From positions 1-64,000 of the forward strand of contig JANSYQ010000009.1 of NCBI GenBank assembly GCA_024742305.1: a stretch of DNA of 64,000 nt, written 5' to 3'. The position numbers were made by a program, and so were the translations under genes. Below the pieces are notes generated by a model. That model saw only the letters and a list, made by a program, of their open reading frames with translations, was not told where the DNA came from and did not search any database. The stretch comes from a bacterium (GTDB lineage Bacteria > Bacteroidota > Bacteroidia > Flavobacteriales_D > Crocinitomicaceae). Shown in pieces: positions 2,633-54,627 of the stretch. Numbering within the stretch: the first letter of the stretch is position 1; each line of letters opens with the position of its first letter.

Positions 2633-4528
2633 TTATTTATCCTCTCCTACGAATGCTTCGATACCCGTGCTTTGCGTTTTAACTTCTACTTCAAGTGCTT
2701 CTAGTTCTGCTTTCAAAGTTGCCACGGCAGCATTGTACTCTTCCAATTGCTCGCCATACTTTTCCATCAATTGCTGCTGAGCCGCAAGAATTTCTTGTTG
2801 TTTTTCAATTTGAGCATCCTGAGCTGCAATTTTTGCATCCAACTCTTGTGTCGCTTTTACCAAAGGCACAACAAATTCAGCATAACGCAATCCGTACATT
2901 TCTTCATCCGTATTTTCAGGTACTTTCACACCCGAGAAATCATACCCAAGTTCTTGAGCAACTTTTTGTACATCTTGAGCAATGAAACCAGAATAAGTTC
3001 CTGATGCTTTTTGAGAGGCATTCATCCCATTGGTTCTGTTAAAGCCATTTAACTTCTCTGTATCGAAGTTATACGTCACTGGGTTTAACTTGTTAATGAA
3101 GTCGAGACCTGGGACATTCGATTGTACATTCGTTTTGAAACGACCATCAGAAGTTGCTGTCCAGTTTACTGTTCCTCCAATGGAAGTTGTTGCTGTATTC
3201 CCGATAAAGACTTCGTTTGAAACTGAGACGTTAGTTCCTGTTCCGATAGCAATGGAGTTTACTCCGGTAACACTTGAACCGATACCAAATGTCATGGACG
3301 AGTCTCCTGTAACACTTGATCCATAACCATAAGCCGATGAATAATTTCCCGAAGAATAAGCATCGTACCCGATTGTCATACCATTATCTCCGAGAATTGT
3401 GTCATATGCACCTATAGCGATAGAGTTATCTGCAATACTCAAGAGGTGATCATTTCCAATTGCTACTGACCTCAGCGCATTGGCTGCTTGACCGTTGTAA
3501 CCAATACCAACCGTATAATCGGTGTTGTTGTTGTAGTAGCTCAATTCAGCTCCAATACCTACCGTTCCTTGTCCATAGTTTCCTGCATTGTAACCGATAG
3601 TTACGGAATATTGTTCATCCACAGTTACATTGTACCCCATGAATACACATCCTTGATTATCACCGTCTCCGATATACCCTACACTTCGAAAATCAGCGAA
3701 AGACCCCAGTCCGACGTTGTAATTTCCTTCACGGTTGGAATAACCCGCTGCATGTCCAACATACGTATTGTGCCATCCTTCGCCTGTTAATCCATTGGTT
3801 CGGTTGTTGTCCCAACCTGCGTTGTTTCCAATAAAGGTATTGTAACTAGCATGCTCGGTTGCTGCTCCAGCTGCGTGACCGATCATGGTGTTACCGATAG
3901 TATTTCGCATATCTGTTCCTGCAGAATCACCTACTGCTGTGTTCCACCAACCTTCTTGCACATCATAAAGAGCGTCGTTACCAACAGCCACGTTTCTGTA
4001 ACCAATTGTGTTGGATCGACCTGCGTTGTTTCCGATGAAAGTGTTATCATCACCGTCTGTGTTGTTGTATCCGGAATCCTCTCCTACAAATACGTTATCG
4101 TTACCTGTCGTATTCAGATGACCTGACTCTTCTCCGATGAAAACGTTATCGAATCCTGAAGTATTTGCCTCCCCAGCTTCTGTACCGACAAACGTGTTAT
4201 CCGTTCCAGTACTTGCATAACCTGCACGTTTCCCAAGGAAAGTATTATCCACACCTGTAGTATTAGAGTGACCTGCATCCTGTCCAATAAAAGTATTGTC
4301 TGAAGCAGATGTATTGGAGAAACCGGCCTGTTCACCAATGAACGTATTATTACTTCCCGATGAAGTTGAATAACCGGAGGAATCTCCATAAAAAGTGTTG
4401 TAATCTCCCGAAGTAATGCTGGCTCCTGATCCAGTACCTTGGGTTTCGTTGAGTGTTTGTGCGTTGGTAGTAGCGCTAATAGCCAATGCTAAACAGGCAG
4501 CAAAAGCCGATTTCCATAGTGTTTTCAT
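2633..4528 (-). CDS. YadA-like beta-roll fibre protein with C-terminal S74 intramolecular chaperone domain
   Basis: 631 aa. A signal peptide (about 23 residues, ending TNAQ) precedes more than 20 copies of a short repeat such as N-T-F-I-G-x-x-A-G. These are the head repeats of trimeric YadA/Hia-type adhesins that build a left-handed beta-roll. The C-terminus starting at S460-D-G-R-F-K465 matches the Peptidase_S74 domain, including GFIAQDVQ near residue 515 and LRYAEFVVPLVKA near 547. It ends in a coiled coil with many Q, E and K residues. In this family the Ser and Lys five residues apart form the self-cleavage dyad after the domain has helped trimer folding. No anchor domain is visible. The gene sits directly upstream of the HYR-repeat gene. 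The fold assignment is strong; the biological target is unknown. Confidence 0.88.
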   Translation of the reverse strand: MKTLWKSAFAACLALAISATTNAQTLNETQGTGSGASITSGDYNTFYGDSSGYSTSSGSNNTFIGEQAGFSNTSASDNTFIGQDAGHSNTTGVDNTFLGKRAGYASTGTDNTFVGTEAGEANTSGFDNVFIGEESGHLNTTGNDNVFVGEDSGYNNTDGDDNTFIGNNAGRSNTIGYRNVAVGNDALYDVQEGWWNTAVGDSAGTDMRNTIGNTMIGHAAGAATEHASYNTFIGNNAGWDNNRTNGLTGEGWHNTYVGHAAGYSNREGNYNVGLGSFADFRSVGYIGDGDNQGCVFMGYNVTVDEQYSVTIGYNAGNYGQGTVGIGAELSYYNNNTDYTVGIGYNGQAANALRSVAIGNDHLLSIADNSIAIGAYDTILGDNGMTIGYDAYSSGNYSSAYGYGSSVTGDSSMTFGIGSSVTGVNSIAIGTGTNVSVSNEVFIGNTATTSIGGTVNWTATSDGRFKTNVQSNVPGLDFINKLNPVTYNFDTEKLNGFNRTNGMNASQKASGTYSGFIAQDVQKVAQELGYDFSGVKVPENTDEEMYGLRYAEFVVPLVKATQELDAKIAAQDAQIEKQQEILAAQQQLMEKYGEQLEEYNAAVATLKAELEALEVEVKTQSTGIEAFVGEDK

Positions 4529-13048: not shown

Positions 13049-13099
13049 AGCATTGTTTATATACGGTACAATTTAATACAAATGTGGTTCAATGTTTCT

Positions 13100-13192
13100 A
13101 TTTGATTGTTTGACGAGTTGACTGCTTGACAAATTGACTGCTTGATGGATTGACTGCTTGATTATTTGACAAATCGACTGTTGGACGCATCA
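13100..13192. repeat. Degenerate TTGACTGCTTGA intergenic repeat array
   Basis: The gap between yaaA and the lipoprotein gene is filled with near-repeats of TTGACTGCTTGA and TTTGACAAATCGACTG at irregular spacing of about 14-22 bp. They code for nothing and lack the regular units and spacers of a CRISPR. Related words occur at 9097-9133. Confidence 0.65.
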
Positions 13193-21390: not shown

Positions 21391-21660
21391 TTAACGACGA
21401 AGTCCTAACTCTTTTACGATTGCACGGTATCTTTCGATATCCTTGTTTTTCAAATAGTCTAGCAAACTACGACGTTTACCTACCATCAATTGAAGTGCAC
21501 GCTGCGTTCCGTAGTCTTTACGGTTCTTTTTCAAGTGCTCTGTCAAGTGAGAAATTCGGTAAGTGAACAAGGCAATTTGTCCTTCGGCTGAACCAGTATT
21601 TGCATCTGATCCTCCGTGTTTTTTGAAGATTTCTTTCTTCTTTTCTGCGTCTAAATACAT
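21391..21660 (-). CDS. rpsO: 30S ribosomal protein S15
   Basis: 89 aa, usual length. Signature segments are DANTGSAEGQIALFTYRI, LTEHLKKNRKDYGTQRAL and M-V-G-K-R-R-S-L-L-D-Y-L. S15 is a primary binder of 16S rRNA central domain and in several bacteria represses its own mRNA through the leader. A consensus promoter lies at 21719-21747 and a small hairpin in the leader at 21695-21709. A terminator follows, so it is probably mainly monocistronic here. Confidence 0.98.
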   Translation of the reverse strand: MYLDAEKKKEIFKKHGGSDANTGSAEGQIALFTYRISHLTEHLKKNRKDYGTQRALQLMVGKRRSLLDYLKNKDIERYRAIVKELGLRR

Positions 21661-21694
21661 GCCAATATTTATGTAAATAATTTTTATGTACTGC

Positions 21695-21709
21695 TATCGT
21701 CTTTCGATA
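21695..21709 (-). promoter_or_regulatory. Small hairpin in the rpsO leader
   Basis: Minus-strand TATCG-AAAGA-CGATA forms a 5-bp stem with a 5-nt loop about 35 nt upstream of the rpsO start. It may belong to an S15-binding leader, but size and sequence alone do not prove this. Confidence 0.3.
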
Positions 21710-21718
21710 ACAACGGTG

Positions 21719-21747
21719 CAAAGATACTCTTTTGTTGGAATTAACAA
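21719..21747 (-). promoter_or_regulatory. Promoter of rpsO
   Basis: TTG (21745-21747) and TATCTTTG (21719-21726) on the minus strand are 18 bp apart, an exact match to the Bacteroidota consensus. The leader to the ATG at 21660 is about 55 nt. Confidence 0.75.
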
Positions 21748-31955: not shown

Positions 31956-32041
31956 GATTTATCAAAAAAGGCGATCTGCCAAGTAAAAATTTACGGACTT
32001 CTAAAGCCTCAGTCCTCCGATTAAAAAATATTTCTTTATGT

Positions 32042-32065
32042 ACTTTCAATTATTTCTGAAAGTTT
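32042..32065 (+). promoter_or_regulatory. Palindromic operator upstream of the gbsR-type gene
   Basis: ACTTTCA-(6 nt)-TTCTGAAAGT: the core is CTTTCA at 32043-32048 and TGAAAG at 32057-32062, 8 nt apart. It ends just before the TATATTTG box and start codon. An almost identical site lies at 32595-32618 before the next gene, strongly suggesting binding by the GbsR-type regulator. Confidence 0.7.
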
Positions 32066-32067
32066 TA

Positions 32068-32075
32068 TATATTTG
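32068..32075 (+). promoter_or_regulatory. -7 box abutting the gbsR-type start codon
   Basis: TATATTTG matches TAnnTTTG exactly and ends 4 nt before the ATG at 32080. It lies directly downstream of the operator. The transcript would be leaderless or nearly so. Confidence 0.5.
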
Positions 32076-32079
32076 AAAT

Positions 32080-32577
32080 ATGAAATTAGACGAAGCAAAG
32101 CAGCATTTTATTCAATCATGGGGAACTCTAGGGTCTAACTGGGGTATAAACAGAACCATGGCACAGATTCACGCTTTGCTGTTGGTTTCCAGTGAACCAA
32201 TTTCTACGGAGGACATGATGGAGCAACTTCAGATTTCACGTGGAAATGCGAATATGAACACGCGCACTCTAATTGAATGGGGCATTGTGACCAAGACCCA
32301 TATTCCCGGTGAGCGCCGCGAGTTTTTCGTTACGGATAAGGATATTTGGGCACTGGCGAGACAAATAGTTAAGCAGCGTCGTCAACGTGAAATTGAACCC
32401 ATGCTCCGTGTCATTCAAGAAGTGAAAAACGTGGAGGGAAACGATAAGGAAACGAAAGAATTCAAAGAGTTAATCAACGATATTGACAGCTTCACCCAAA
32501 AGGCAGACGATTTAATGGATAAGTTCATTCGATCTGATGAACATTGGTTCTACCGTCAATTGCTGAAAATGGTGTAG
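32080..32577 (+). CDS. GbsR/MarR-family transcriptional regulator
   Basis: 165 aa. It fits the GbsR class of winged-helix regulators: FIQSWGTLGSNWGINRTMAQ at the start, a helix-turn-helix with MEQLQISRGNANMNTRTLIEWG near residues 47-72, and RREFFVTDKDIW in the wing. Family members control osmoprotectant or transport genes. Its start and that of the next gene are each preceded by the same palindrome, so self-control and control of the membrane pair are likely. Ligand unknown. Confidence 0.9.
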   Translation: MKLDEAKQHFIQSWGTLGSNWGINRTMAQIHALLLVSSEPISTEDMMEQLQISRGNANMNTRTLIEWGIVTKTHIPGERREFFVTDKDIWALARQIVKQRRQREIEPMLRVIQEVKNVEGNDKETKEFKELINDIDSFTQKADDLMDKFIRSDEHWFYRQLLKMV

Positions 32578-32594
32578 TATTTTTTTAACCATAT

Positions 32595-32618
32595 ACTTTC
32601 AATTATTCCTGAAAGTTT
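32595..32618 (+). promoter_or_regulatory. Second copy of the palindromic operator
   Basis: CTTTCA at 32596-32601 and TGAAAG at 32610-32615, 8 nt apart. It differs from the 32042 copy at one position within 24 bp and sits 14 bp before the ATG at 32632. Confidence 0.7.
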
Positions 32619-32631
32619 AAAAACAAATAAA

Positions 32632-33054
32632 ATGGAAAAAGAGAAAAAAATCGGAGCATGGCTGGGAATGGCAGGTGGACTGTTGGGTATAATAGCTGTA
32701 CTAGTCATTTTTGGAAAGAATTCCTTACGTCCTATGCACTACCCCTTGATTCTATCAATTATTTCCGTAGGACTGACTTTTTCTGCCTTATTCGGAGCAA
32801 AAGCAGCAAAGGAGATCAATCAAAAGAAACTGCATCCAGTTTTAGCTGGTATCAAGTCTACAGTATTCACCACCTTATGCAGTGACGTCGGTGTAACTAT
32901 TCTTATGGCTCTCATGCACGGAGAGCCCTCTTGGATTCTCTCCATTCCGGTAATTATGATCATGTCTTTTGTTGCAGGCGGCATCCCCATGCTCATTATT
33001 GCCATCATTTTTGGATACACCTTACAATTCACCCTTAAAAAACGTCTATCATGA
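32632..33054 (+). CDS. Small integral membrane protein, first of GbsR-linked pair
   Basis: 140 aa with four hydrophobic segments (about residues 8-27, 37-56, 74-92 and 102-132). Basic residues cluster at both ends. Not recognised. It starts 14 bp behind the palindromic operator and overlaps the next membrane gene by ATGA, so the two products are probably made together and may form one complex. The regulator next door suggests that their level is adjusted to some signal. Confidence 0.75.
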   Translation: MEKEKKIGAWLGMAGGLLGIIAVLVIFGKNSLRPMHYPLILSIISVGLTFSALFGAKAAKEINQKKLHPVLAGIKSTVFTTLCSDVGVTILMALMHGEPSWILSIPVIMIMSFVAGGIPMLIIAIIFGYTLQFTLKKRLS

Positions 33055-33497
33055 TAGAATTTAAAGTTCCCACAGGCCTCATTATTGCTGGTGGTATTGG
33101 ACAGATTTTCACCGCGTTGATATATCCTTACATCCGTCACGTTGTGTTCGATTGGTACAGCGACATTCAAAAACTGCGTCCGTTAAATCAGGAAATTGCT
33201 AAAACGTATGGCCGCTACATTCAAGGGCTCAATTTTTCGTTCGGAATCATCTCTTTATTGATGTTCTATGAGCTTCAGAACGGCACCGCTTTGGCATGCG
33301 CACTCACAGGATTGATCGCAGCGTACTGGATCGGAAAAATTGCCACTCAATTCGCCTATTACCCGATGTATGAAATCCCCAAGAAAACACTATTTCGGGT
33401 CGGTGAAGTATTGATGAACGGACTGTTCTTCCTATTCGCAGGAGTGTTCACTTGGTTGTTTGTAGTGAACCTCTTGCACTATTTTGGAGCGAATTGA
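33051..33497 (+). CDS. Small integral membrane protein, second of GbsR-linked pair
   Basis: 148 aa with four hydrophobic helices (about 8-28, 60-76, 80-98 and 120-142) and a loop after the first containing Y-P-Y-I-R-H-V-V-F-D-W-Y. Not recognised. The start codon overlaps the previous stop (ATGA), indicating translational coupling. It converges on the minus-strand gene ending at 33517. Confidence 0.75.
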   Translation: MIEFKVPTGLIIAGGIGQIFTALIYPYIRHVVFDWYSDIQKLRPLNQEIAKTYGRYIQGLNFSFGIISLLMFYELQNGTALACALTGLIAAYWIGKIATQFAYYPMYEIPKKTLFRVGEVLMNGLFFLFAGVFTWLFVVNLLHYFGAN

Positions 33498-52926: not shown

Positions 52927-54627
52927 ATGGACAAAAAAGAACTGGAAGGCAAGAAGGTTGCCGAATTACGAGAAATTGCCAAAGCTGCAGGTATTGATGC
53001 TGCTTCCCTGAAAAAAGGTGAAATAGTAGACAAATTACTTGCTGCGGGGTCAAATTCCAACGACTCTGGCGCATCCGCTGATTCGGAAGAAGGAGAACGC
53101 CCGAAACGCAAACGTGCCCGTCGTAAAGTGATGAGCGAAGATGCGGAAGGCCAACCAAGCCTATTTAAAGAGGATGCTCCGGCAAACTCTGAAAAGGAAA
53201 AGTCTGAGGGAGAAACAGCAAAGCAGCCAAAAAAGAAGAAAGCCGATATCAAATCGGAACTATTGGCAAAAGCAGCGGCGAAAGCGGAAGAAGTGGGCGC
53301 TACACCGGCACCAGCAGAAACACCACAAAATCAGTCGCAGAATCAAGGGCAAGCTCAAAATCGTCGAGGAGATCAAAATAAGGGTCGAAACGATCGTAAT
53401 GACAGAAATGATCGAAACGATAGAAACGACCGCAACGATAGAAACAGTCGAAACAACAATCGAAACAATAATCAGCGCAACTCCAAAGAGGATGACGAAA
53501 AGTACAACCTTGTTGGAATTGTAGCTGCAGAAGGAGTTTTGGAAGTAATGCCTGATGGATACGGATTCTTACGTTCATCAGACTACAACTATCTTCCTTC
53601 ACCAGATGACATTTATGTTTCTCAAAGTCAAGTGAAACTCTTTGGCCTGAAAACGGGAGATACTGTAACAGGTACAATTCGTCCACCGCGTGAAGGAGAG
53701 AAATTCTTCCCGCTAGTGAAAGTAGAGTCCATCAATGGTCGTCCACCATCATATATTCGTGATCGCGTGCCGTTCCAATACTTGACACCTTTGTTCCCGG
53801 ATGAGAAGTTCAAATTAACAGGACACGCGCAAGAGACGATGTCTACGCGAGTAATGGACTTGTTTGCTCCGATCGGTAAAGGTCAGCGTGGAATGATTGT
53901 GGCACAACCGAAAACGGGTAAAACGATGCTCTTGAAGGATGTTGCCAATGCTATTGCAGCCAATCATCCTGAAACGTACTTGATTGTTTTATTGATTGAT
54001 GAACGACCGGAAGAAGTTACAGACATGGCGCGCTCGGTAAATGCCGAAGTAGTTGCATCTACTTTCGATGAGCCGGCGGATCGTCACGTAAAAGTGGCGA
54101 ACATGGTCTTGGAGAAAGCGAAACGCATGGTAGAATGTGGTCACGACGTATGCATCTTGCTTGACTCGATCACACGTTTGGCCCGAGCTTACAACACCGT
54201 ATCACCAGCTTCTGGTAAAGTATTGTCCGGAGGGGTTGACGCGAACGCATTGCACAAGCCAAAACGATTCTTTGGATCAGCACGTAAGATTGAAAATGGA
54301 GGTTCACTTTCCATTCTAGCAACAGCCTTAACAGAAACGGGTTCCAAAATGGACGAAGTAATCTTCGAGGAATTTAAAGGAACGGGTAACATGGAACTTC
54401 AGTTGGATCGTAAGATTTCCAACCGTCGTATTTACCCTGCTATTGACATTATTTCATCCGGTACACGTCGTGAAGATTTGTTGATGGACAAGGATGTATT
54501 GCAACGCGTTTGGTTGATCCGTAAATTTATTGCCGATATGAACCCTGTGGAAGCCATGGAATTCTTGAAGGAGCGCATGGATAACACGATGTCGAACGAG
54601 GAGTTCCTCGTAACAATGAACAGCTAA
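52927..54627 (+). CDS. rho: Transcription termination factor Rho with long disordered insertion
   Basis: 566 aa against about 420 in E. coli. Residues 1-40 are the N-terminal helical Rho_N part ([14 protein letters not shown]). Residues 41-192 are low-complexity, basic and polar, with six consecutive Arg-Asn-Asp units at 154-171. The RNA-binding cold-shock-like fold begins near residue 196 ([14 protein letters not shown]), and the ATPase has [13 protein letters not shown] and [12 protein letters not shown]. In Bacteroides thetaiotaomicron a similar Rho insertion drives condensate formation. It ends 1 bp before the next gene. Confidence 0.97.

Follow-up and report, generated by a model that had tools for sequence, protein, structure and literature searches.

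The window analyzed here is a 64,000-nt stretch of a Crocinitomicaceae contig (JANSYQ010000009.1, positions 1 to 64,000). Near its middle, a gene for a winged-helix regulator of the GbsR type lies between two palindromes and is followed by two small membrane protein genes. The features are listed below, numbered from the first nucleotide of the window.

32042..32063, no strand: operator 1, ACTTTCA-N8-TGAAAGT, upstream of the regulator and covering the predicted -33 region
32068..32075, + strand: predicted Bacteroidota -7 box TATATTTG, matching the TAnnTTTG consensus, 4 nt before the regulator ATG
32080..32577, + strand: GbsR/Mj223-type winged-helix regulator, 165 aa, assigned from a PDB 1ku9 match, the CudC model and Pfam MarR_2
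32595..32616, no strand: operator 2, 15 nt before the first cargo ATG, with no TAnnTTTG box around it
32632..33054, + strand: small membrane protein, 140 aa, first cargo gene ("slot 1"), lineage-specific and recognized by hydropathy
33051..33497, + strand: small membrane protein, 148 aa, coupled to the first, with scattered relatives at 62-69% identity

The regulator gene and its flanking operators

The sequence itself shows the regulator gene between a pair of nearly identical operators, of a type found across the family. ACTTTCA-N8-TGAAAGT occurs at 32042-32063 (ACTTTCAATTATTTCTGAAAGT) and 32595-32616 (ACTTTCAATTATTCCTGAAAGT), with a start-to-start distance of 553 bp. The initial annotation had reported CTTTCA-N8-TGAAAG twice at this distance, and both copies were recovered at those positions. 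It had also described a single difference between the copies across 24 bp; the single mismatch holds, but the stretch common to both sites is 25 bp long (32041-32065 versus 32594-32618). The exact 12-base pattern has just these two copies in the 4,090,148-base (4.09 Mb) genome, both within the unit, which agrees with its description as a self-contained regulatory unit; a genome search for further sites, as had been proposed, returned no additional exact copy. Read backwards, the pattern had 0 matches in the same 4,090,148 bases. When one mismatch was allowed in a relaxed pattern, 21 further places were found compared with 15 for the reversed control, so the remainder looks like background. Within the window, the bare pattern with up to two mismatches is not rarer than chance (7 found, 6.08 expected), and only two of these seven matches are exact.

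The best PDB match of the regulator is 1ku9, Mj223 from Methanocaldococcus (E 4.3e-16, residues 3-146). This similarity to the Mj223/GbsR-type winged helix places it in the GbsR family of the MarR superfamily, as the initial annotation had it, and Mj223 is named as the structural template for the GbsR family in the excerpts of PMC6207618 used here. Among NCBIfam models the best was CudC (E 3.6e-14), with 52.9 bits and thus below the cut-off of 218, and the Pfam MarR_2 score (26.2 bits) is slightly under its cut-off of 27. Of 299 genomes from the order, 81 encode a relative at E <= 1e-15; for the phylum the count is 123 of 395 at E <= 1e-20. Among plasmids, the 40 relatives listed share 33.8-45.2% identity with the regulator, and many of them are annotated as GbsR or MarR proteins. 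Among 92 regulators, the aromatic residues F10, W14, W21, W67, F83, and F128 are kept in at least 80%.

Conservation of the operator and its counterparts in other bacteria

Loci were collected from the window, genome contigs (4), and further sets of 40, 28, and 9, giving 82 in all. Except for some of the last 9, they were chosen by regulator similarity and availability; G257, G172, G056, and G125 were picked with known sites in view. At 78 of these 82 loci, the core TTTCA-N8-TGAAA was found no more than 130 bp upstream of the regulator. The 82 represent part of about 200 genomes with a match, hardly sample the regulators of other classes at about 40% identity, and share descent, so that the counts are not independent. 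The initial annotation had named a lack of sites upstream of orthologues as grounds for rejecting the operator, and the sites were present. Other spacers (2-7 and 9-16) were seen upstream of the regulator in 0-2 loci each, and mononucleotide shuffles gave a mean of 0.045 loci per set with the core at this place, although the shuffles, like the Fisher tests below, ignore kinship. With ten loci added, the count rose to 88 of 92. The four loci without an exact upstream core comprise one with a single mismatch (G297) and three without a site (L106, L112, and L164), of which L164 is the one examined from the regulators of other classes at about 40% identity. A search of the 500 bp behind the regulator found the core at 56 of the 82 loci and no core at the other 26.

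Genome-wide counts gave a similar association. The 14-base site is present in 57 of 299 genomes, 51 of which have the regulator, and the reversed control pattern is present in 9 genomes. Ten of the sites that do not adjoin a regulator were inspected: five head c2-type or DCC-TIGR01777 genes (G232, G278, G276, G250, and G248), and the other five lie inside ORFs (G262, G294, G296, G257:C103, and G056:C51); the regulator-less sites G015:C28, G027, G131, and G197 were left out of these ten. The operator-plus-box pattern was found in 53 of 80 genomes, 44 of 52 with the regulator versus 9 of 28 without it. Because regulator-less genomes also match and the reversed pattern is found in 19 of the 80 genomes, operator-plus-box alone is not specific, and single matches mean little without context.

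The operator has a counterpart with a published footprint. CydE, a GbsR-type repressor from Alishewanella sp. WH16-1, protects two sites against DNase I and represses its own operon, according to the excerpts of PMC6096048 used here, which give site 1 as TATTTCAGAAATTTCTGAAAGTTCA. This site contains TTTCA-N8-TGAAA, the core of both window operators. By this core, a yardstick set here rather than one that defines the family in the papers, both window sites carry a CydE-type operator; the words palindrome and inverted repeat are absent from the main text of PMC6096048. The two systems are alike in the regulator type, the presence of two binding sites, and the site 1 core. They differ in layout: CydE binds two sites within a single promoter region, the second with a different sequence, whereas the window operators are near-identical and flank the regulator gene. 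They also differ in cargo, which for CydE is cytochrome bd, derepressed by sulfate, and in the window is the membrane pair. By its neighborhood the window regulator does not fit the CydE subgroup, as it is not next to cydAB or cydDC.

The core also occurs with proteobacterial relatives carried on plasmids. In six of 12 such relatives the exact core stands 28-44 bp ahead of the regulator gene; closely related Rhizobium account for two of the six. Another two (L235 and L240) have TTTCT-N8-AGAAA instead, at 35 and 43 bp, which may represent changed recognition. The remaining four have neither palindrome; one of these adjoins IS110 genes, and two are distant matches. Half of the set (6 of 12) precede cydDC or cydAB genes.

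Other characterized members of the family show further likenesses. CioR of Chromobacterium violaceum is also a GbsR-type regulator encoded in the operon that it directly represses, cioRAB, but its cargo is cytochrome bd; no operator sequence was found for it in the excerpts of PMC11837568, nor was an operator sequence found in those of PMC7186363. GbsR, OpcR, and OpuAR of Bacillus, as well as CudC, belong to the same family as the window regulator, with Mj223 as template, but they control osmoprotectant cargo, and choline or betaine is the ligand of GbsR and OpuAR. For GbsR-type proteins of Bacteroidetes, which share phylum and family with the window regulator, a 2018 survey reported no consistent picture from gene neighborhoods (PMC6207618), and the operator, the twin layout, and the shared cargo set were not found in the excerpts of that survey. 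In a limited search of the open-access literature, we found no earlier description of the twin-operator cassette. The unit is one version of a regulon recurring across the class; its novelty is that of a variant of GbsR-type autoregulation and not of a new kind of system. An operator that matches a footprinted site makes the GbsR-type regulons of Bacteroidetes readable from sequence, and the shared operator links these regulons to recurring membrane, lipid, and thiol proteins.

Predicted promoter architecture and proposed mode of control

The Flavobacterium -7 box is TAnnTTTG, at positions -12 to -5 (PMC9723704). Of 78 first operators, 46 have this box behind them, compared with a mean of 2.4 and a maximum of 9 in shuffled sequences. 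Two classes of loci could be told apart by the offset of the box. Long-offset loci have, in 39 of 41 cases, a TTG within the right half-site, 18-20 bp ahead of the box. Among 14 loci of the other, short-offset class, which includes the window, 0 have a TTG 16-24 bp before the -7 box, and taking the left half-site as the -33 element there is only a reading. An ATG stands 3-4 nt after the box in 37 of 48 loci with a clear start codon (seven loci with unclear regulator starts were excluded), and the gap in the window is 4 nt. A transcript from this box would start at or next to the ATG, and the regulator mRNA is therefore predicted to be leaderless.

The surroundings of operator 2 are different. 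The enlarged set has TAnnTTTG behind the first operator at 55 of 88 loci, whereas 0 of 58 second operators have it in the next 45 bp (Fisher p 3e-17). Extending the search to 70 bp after operator 2 gave one box in 56 loci, at offset 56, and none was found in the 80 bp before operator 2 or inside it (0 of 56 loci; shuffles 4.8). The next ATG after operator 2, counted as the first ATG in any frame, follows at a median of 16 nt, within 39 nt in 58 of 58 loci, and at 0-4 nt in 13 of 58. Operator 2 therefore probably does not serve a promoter of its own, contrary to what the initial annotation implied.

A pair of separately controlled promoters, with operator 2 overlapping a non-consensus promoter of the membrane pair, is an alternative that we consider unlikely. 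It would account for the position of operator 2, which in the window ends 15 nt before the first cargo ATG and elsewhere is always close to one. Weak boxes are also common: 33 of the 88 first operators have no exact TAnnTTTG either, so a missing box at operator 2 is no proof against a promoter. Against this alternative stand the consensus boxes, frequent after first operators and lacking in the 45 bp after second ones, their absence before or within operator 2, and the loci in which an ATG 0-4 nt away leaves no room for a -7 box.

We favor, as fairly probable, an autorepressor cassette with one promoter and a second, internal operator. In the arrangement we infer, a regulator dimer bound at operator 1 would cover the -33 region of the sole recognizable promoter and so repress its own transcript. 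Read-through from the regulator promoter would transcribe the two membrane genes. Close to the cargo start, operator 2 could bind a second dimer that acts as an extra block, either as a roadblock to elongating polymerase or through contact with the dimer at operator 1. Some ligand or stress would release the repressor, and regulator and cargo would be switched on together. This model predicts a second layer of control via the internal operator, and the cassette would be a compact, conserved case of predicted leaderless autoregulation.

The sign of regulation could be the opposite one, with the regulator an activator, or an activator at one operator and a repressor at the other. The MarR superfamily does include activators (PMC6207618), but operator 1 overlaps the predicted -33 region, as would be expected for a repressor, and the four GbsR-family members studied by the time of that survey were all repressors according to its excerpts. 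We regard activation as improbable. More doubtful still is a true osmoprotectant role like that of GbsR, OpuAR, and CudC, in which the regulator would bind choline or glycine betaine. CudC is its best NCBIfam model, but the score is far under the model's cut-off, and no choline, betaine, or Opu gene was seen among the window neighbors (by eye) or in the annotated part of the cargo; in addition, the aromatic cage is described in excerpts of PMC6207618 as absent from GbsR-type proteins outside the osmostress group. This candidate was rejected on the CudC score together with the annotated part of the cargo, which gave no support to the hint of salt or osmoprotectant stress in the initial annotation. 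Least credible is a role of the palindrome in RNA, as a hairpin ahead of the cargo start: operator 2 is near an ATG and would be part of the transcript, but operator 1, upstream of the predicted start and untranscribed, has the same core, which CydE binds as DNA.

Also in favor of the autorepressor reading are site pairs that lie away from the regulator gene (G232, G278, G276, G248, and G395). Operator 1 comes first there, then a -7-like box, a mini-ORF 2 to 15 codons long, the second operator, and finally cargo, which consists of c2-type membrane genes or of DCC and TIGR01777. G232 and G278 share one genus, and G276 and G248 another. G232, G278, and G395 have a perfect -7 box, and in G276 and G248 it is one base off. 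In G276 the mini-ORF, read by eye from the ATG that comes after one overlapping the box, is MEENE; the G395 box was also read by eye. The mini-ORFs of G232 and G278 begin with MEL, as many regulators do, and so may be regulator relics. A search of 80 genomes for exact twins 84-114 bp apart returned G276 (plus a second pair), G248, and G395; it missed G232 and G278 because the core of their second operator has one mismatch. In the distal twin-operator leaders L170, L171, L172, L175, and L210, the mini-ORF ATG lies 2-4 nt after the -7-like box, at about the usual place of the regulator ATG. Single distal sites with a promoter were found before DCC-TIGR01777 in G250 and before an operon with DUF2071 in G573.

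Spacing between the distal operators is 102 bp in G232, 103 in G278, 104 in G276, 92 in G248, and 102 in G395. Paired operators mediate repression in the lac and gal systems, and a distal spacing of 92-104 bp resembles known repression-loop spacings. Compared with lac and gal looping, however, there are only five distal cases, two pairs of which come from one genus each, and the distance between operators 1 and 2 at regulator loci showed no helical phasing (49 loci). A broader proposal can be built on these pairs, namely a class-wide switch with one promoter and two operators, in which operator 1 would lie in the -33 region of a leaderless promoter and operator 2, near the cargo start, would act on elongating polymerase or through dimer-dimer contact. 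A leaderless mini-ORF in place of the regulator at some distal sites, with both operators kept, would then suggest that the twin layout itself is selected. We put this forward tentatively, as a possibility that falls somewhat short of even.

Cargo genes and history of the cassette

The cargo in the window is the pair of ORFs 32632-33054 and 33051-33497, which overlap at ATGA, in line with the translationally coupled pair noted initially after operator 2. The initial annotation had called both products four-helix membrane proteins. Hydropathy gave four segments for the 140-aa protein and four peaks, two of them overlapping, for the 148-aa protein. The 148-aa protein was modeled with four long helices at moderate confidence (pLDDT 69.8), and a PDB search with this model returned nothing at E <= 0.001. 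For the 140-aa protein, the model is of poor quality (pLDDT 59).

The 140-aa protein had no match at E <= 1e-5 in 198 other genomes of the order. Its similarity to the slot-1 protein of G060 is weak (E about 5e-5 among 1611 ORFs); as a control, the best eight of 40 shuffles had no match up to E 10. Across loci, slot 1 often holds a small membrane protein, and its family varies. Relatives of the 148-aa protein at 62-69% identity were found in eight places outside the window. Two of the eight, in G319 and Cellulophaga, are downstream of the regulator and the second operator, and the C. baltica locus (L007) shares the layout of the window. In the regulator-less genomes G133 and G274 the gene is coupled to TIGR01777, and 4 of the 8 places have no visible link to the regulon. 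No relative was found among plasmids or viral contigs. A resemblance to a protein of the G573 distal operon (E about 3e-4) was set aside as unsafe, given that about 1e-3 was attained by 2 of 40 shuffled sequences.

Genes for TIGR01777 epimerases stand downstream of the regulator at 31 of 45 loci, a set that includes loci truncated by contig ends. They were also present in 16 of another 18 stretches, in one of which (L228) the regulator ORF was not recognized. A Pfam scan of ten representatives named DCC1-like (below cut-off), DUF4166, DUF2071, fatty-acid desaturase, and methyltransferase proteins in the cargo, and many other cargo ORFs were unnamed. The same operator thus heads operons elsewhere with TIGR01777, DCC-type thiol-disulfide proteins, desaturase, DUF2071, DUF4166, methyltransferase, and small membrane proteins, and the 148-aa protein itself occurs in such operons; the cargo therefore probably has an envelope or membrane function. 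Besides the two small membrane genes, the regulator has as a neighbor in the window an ORF that by eye resembles RNA methyltransferases.

Operons of another kind were seen in the f9 family (L040, L042, L043, L046, L047, L049, L054, L056, L057, L062, and L165-L168), where the genes after the regulator, read by eye, include ferritin-like, YfiR-like, TPR, and large HAMP/SpoIIE-like proteins in varying sets. Two of these loci, L165 and L167, show overlap between the core site and the preceding ORF.

A tree of 92 regulators places the window regulator with that of a sister MAG (92% identity) and with G118 (support 96/94), apart from six regulators of the same genus. Those six sit at another locus, at which the window genome has TIGR01777 between the same neighbors. 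The genes on either side of this TIGR01777 gene are homologous (72-78% and 57-60% identity) to those bordering the same-genus cassettes, the upstream one being present in 6 of 6 and the downstream one seen in 4 of 6. No regulator was found at this TIGR01777 locus, and the exact core site is absent from the 8-kb stretch. Loss at the TIGR01777 locus with gain of another cassette, or an old duplication, would each fit this pattern.

Some minor features were recorded alongside. In the sister MAG contig (L004, JADFAL010000027.1), a break was seen in the part from about position 3560 to the end. The contig matches the window through operator 2 and at about the ATG switches to a gltD-like ORF, named by eye, which looks proteobacterial and continues into unrelated sequence near the contig end; the junction is either a chimeric assembly or a transfer. 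Elsewhere in the window, an S15-Flavobacteria ribosomal protein leader (Rfam RF03161) lies at 21658-21726 on the - strand, and short tandem arrays with 16-bp and 9/18-bp units lie at 13098-13170 and 53385-53454.
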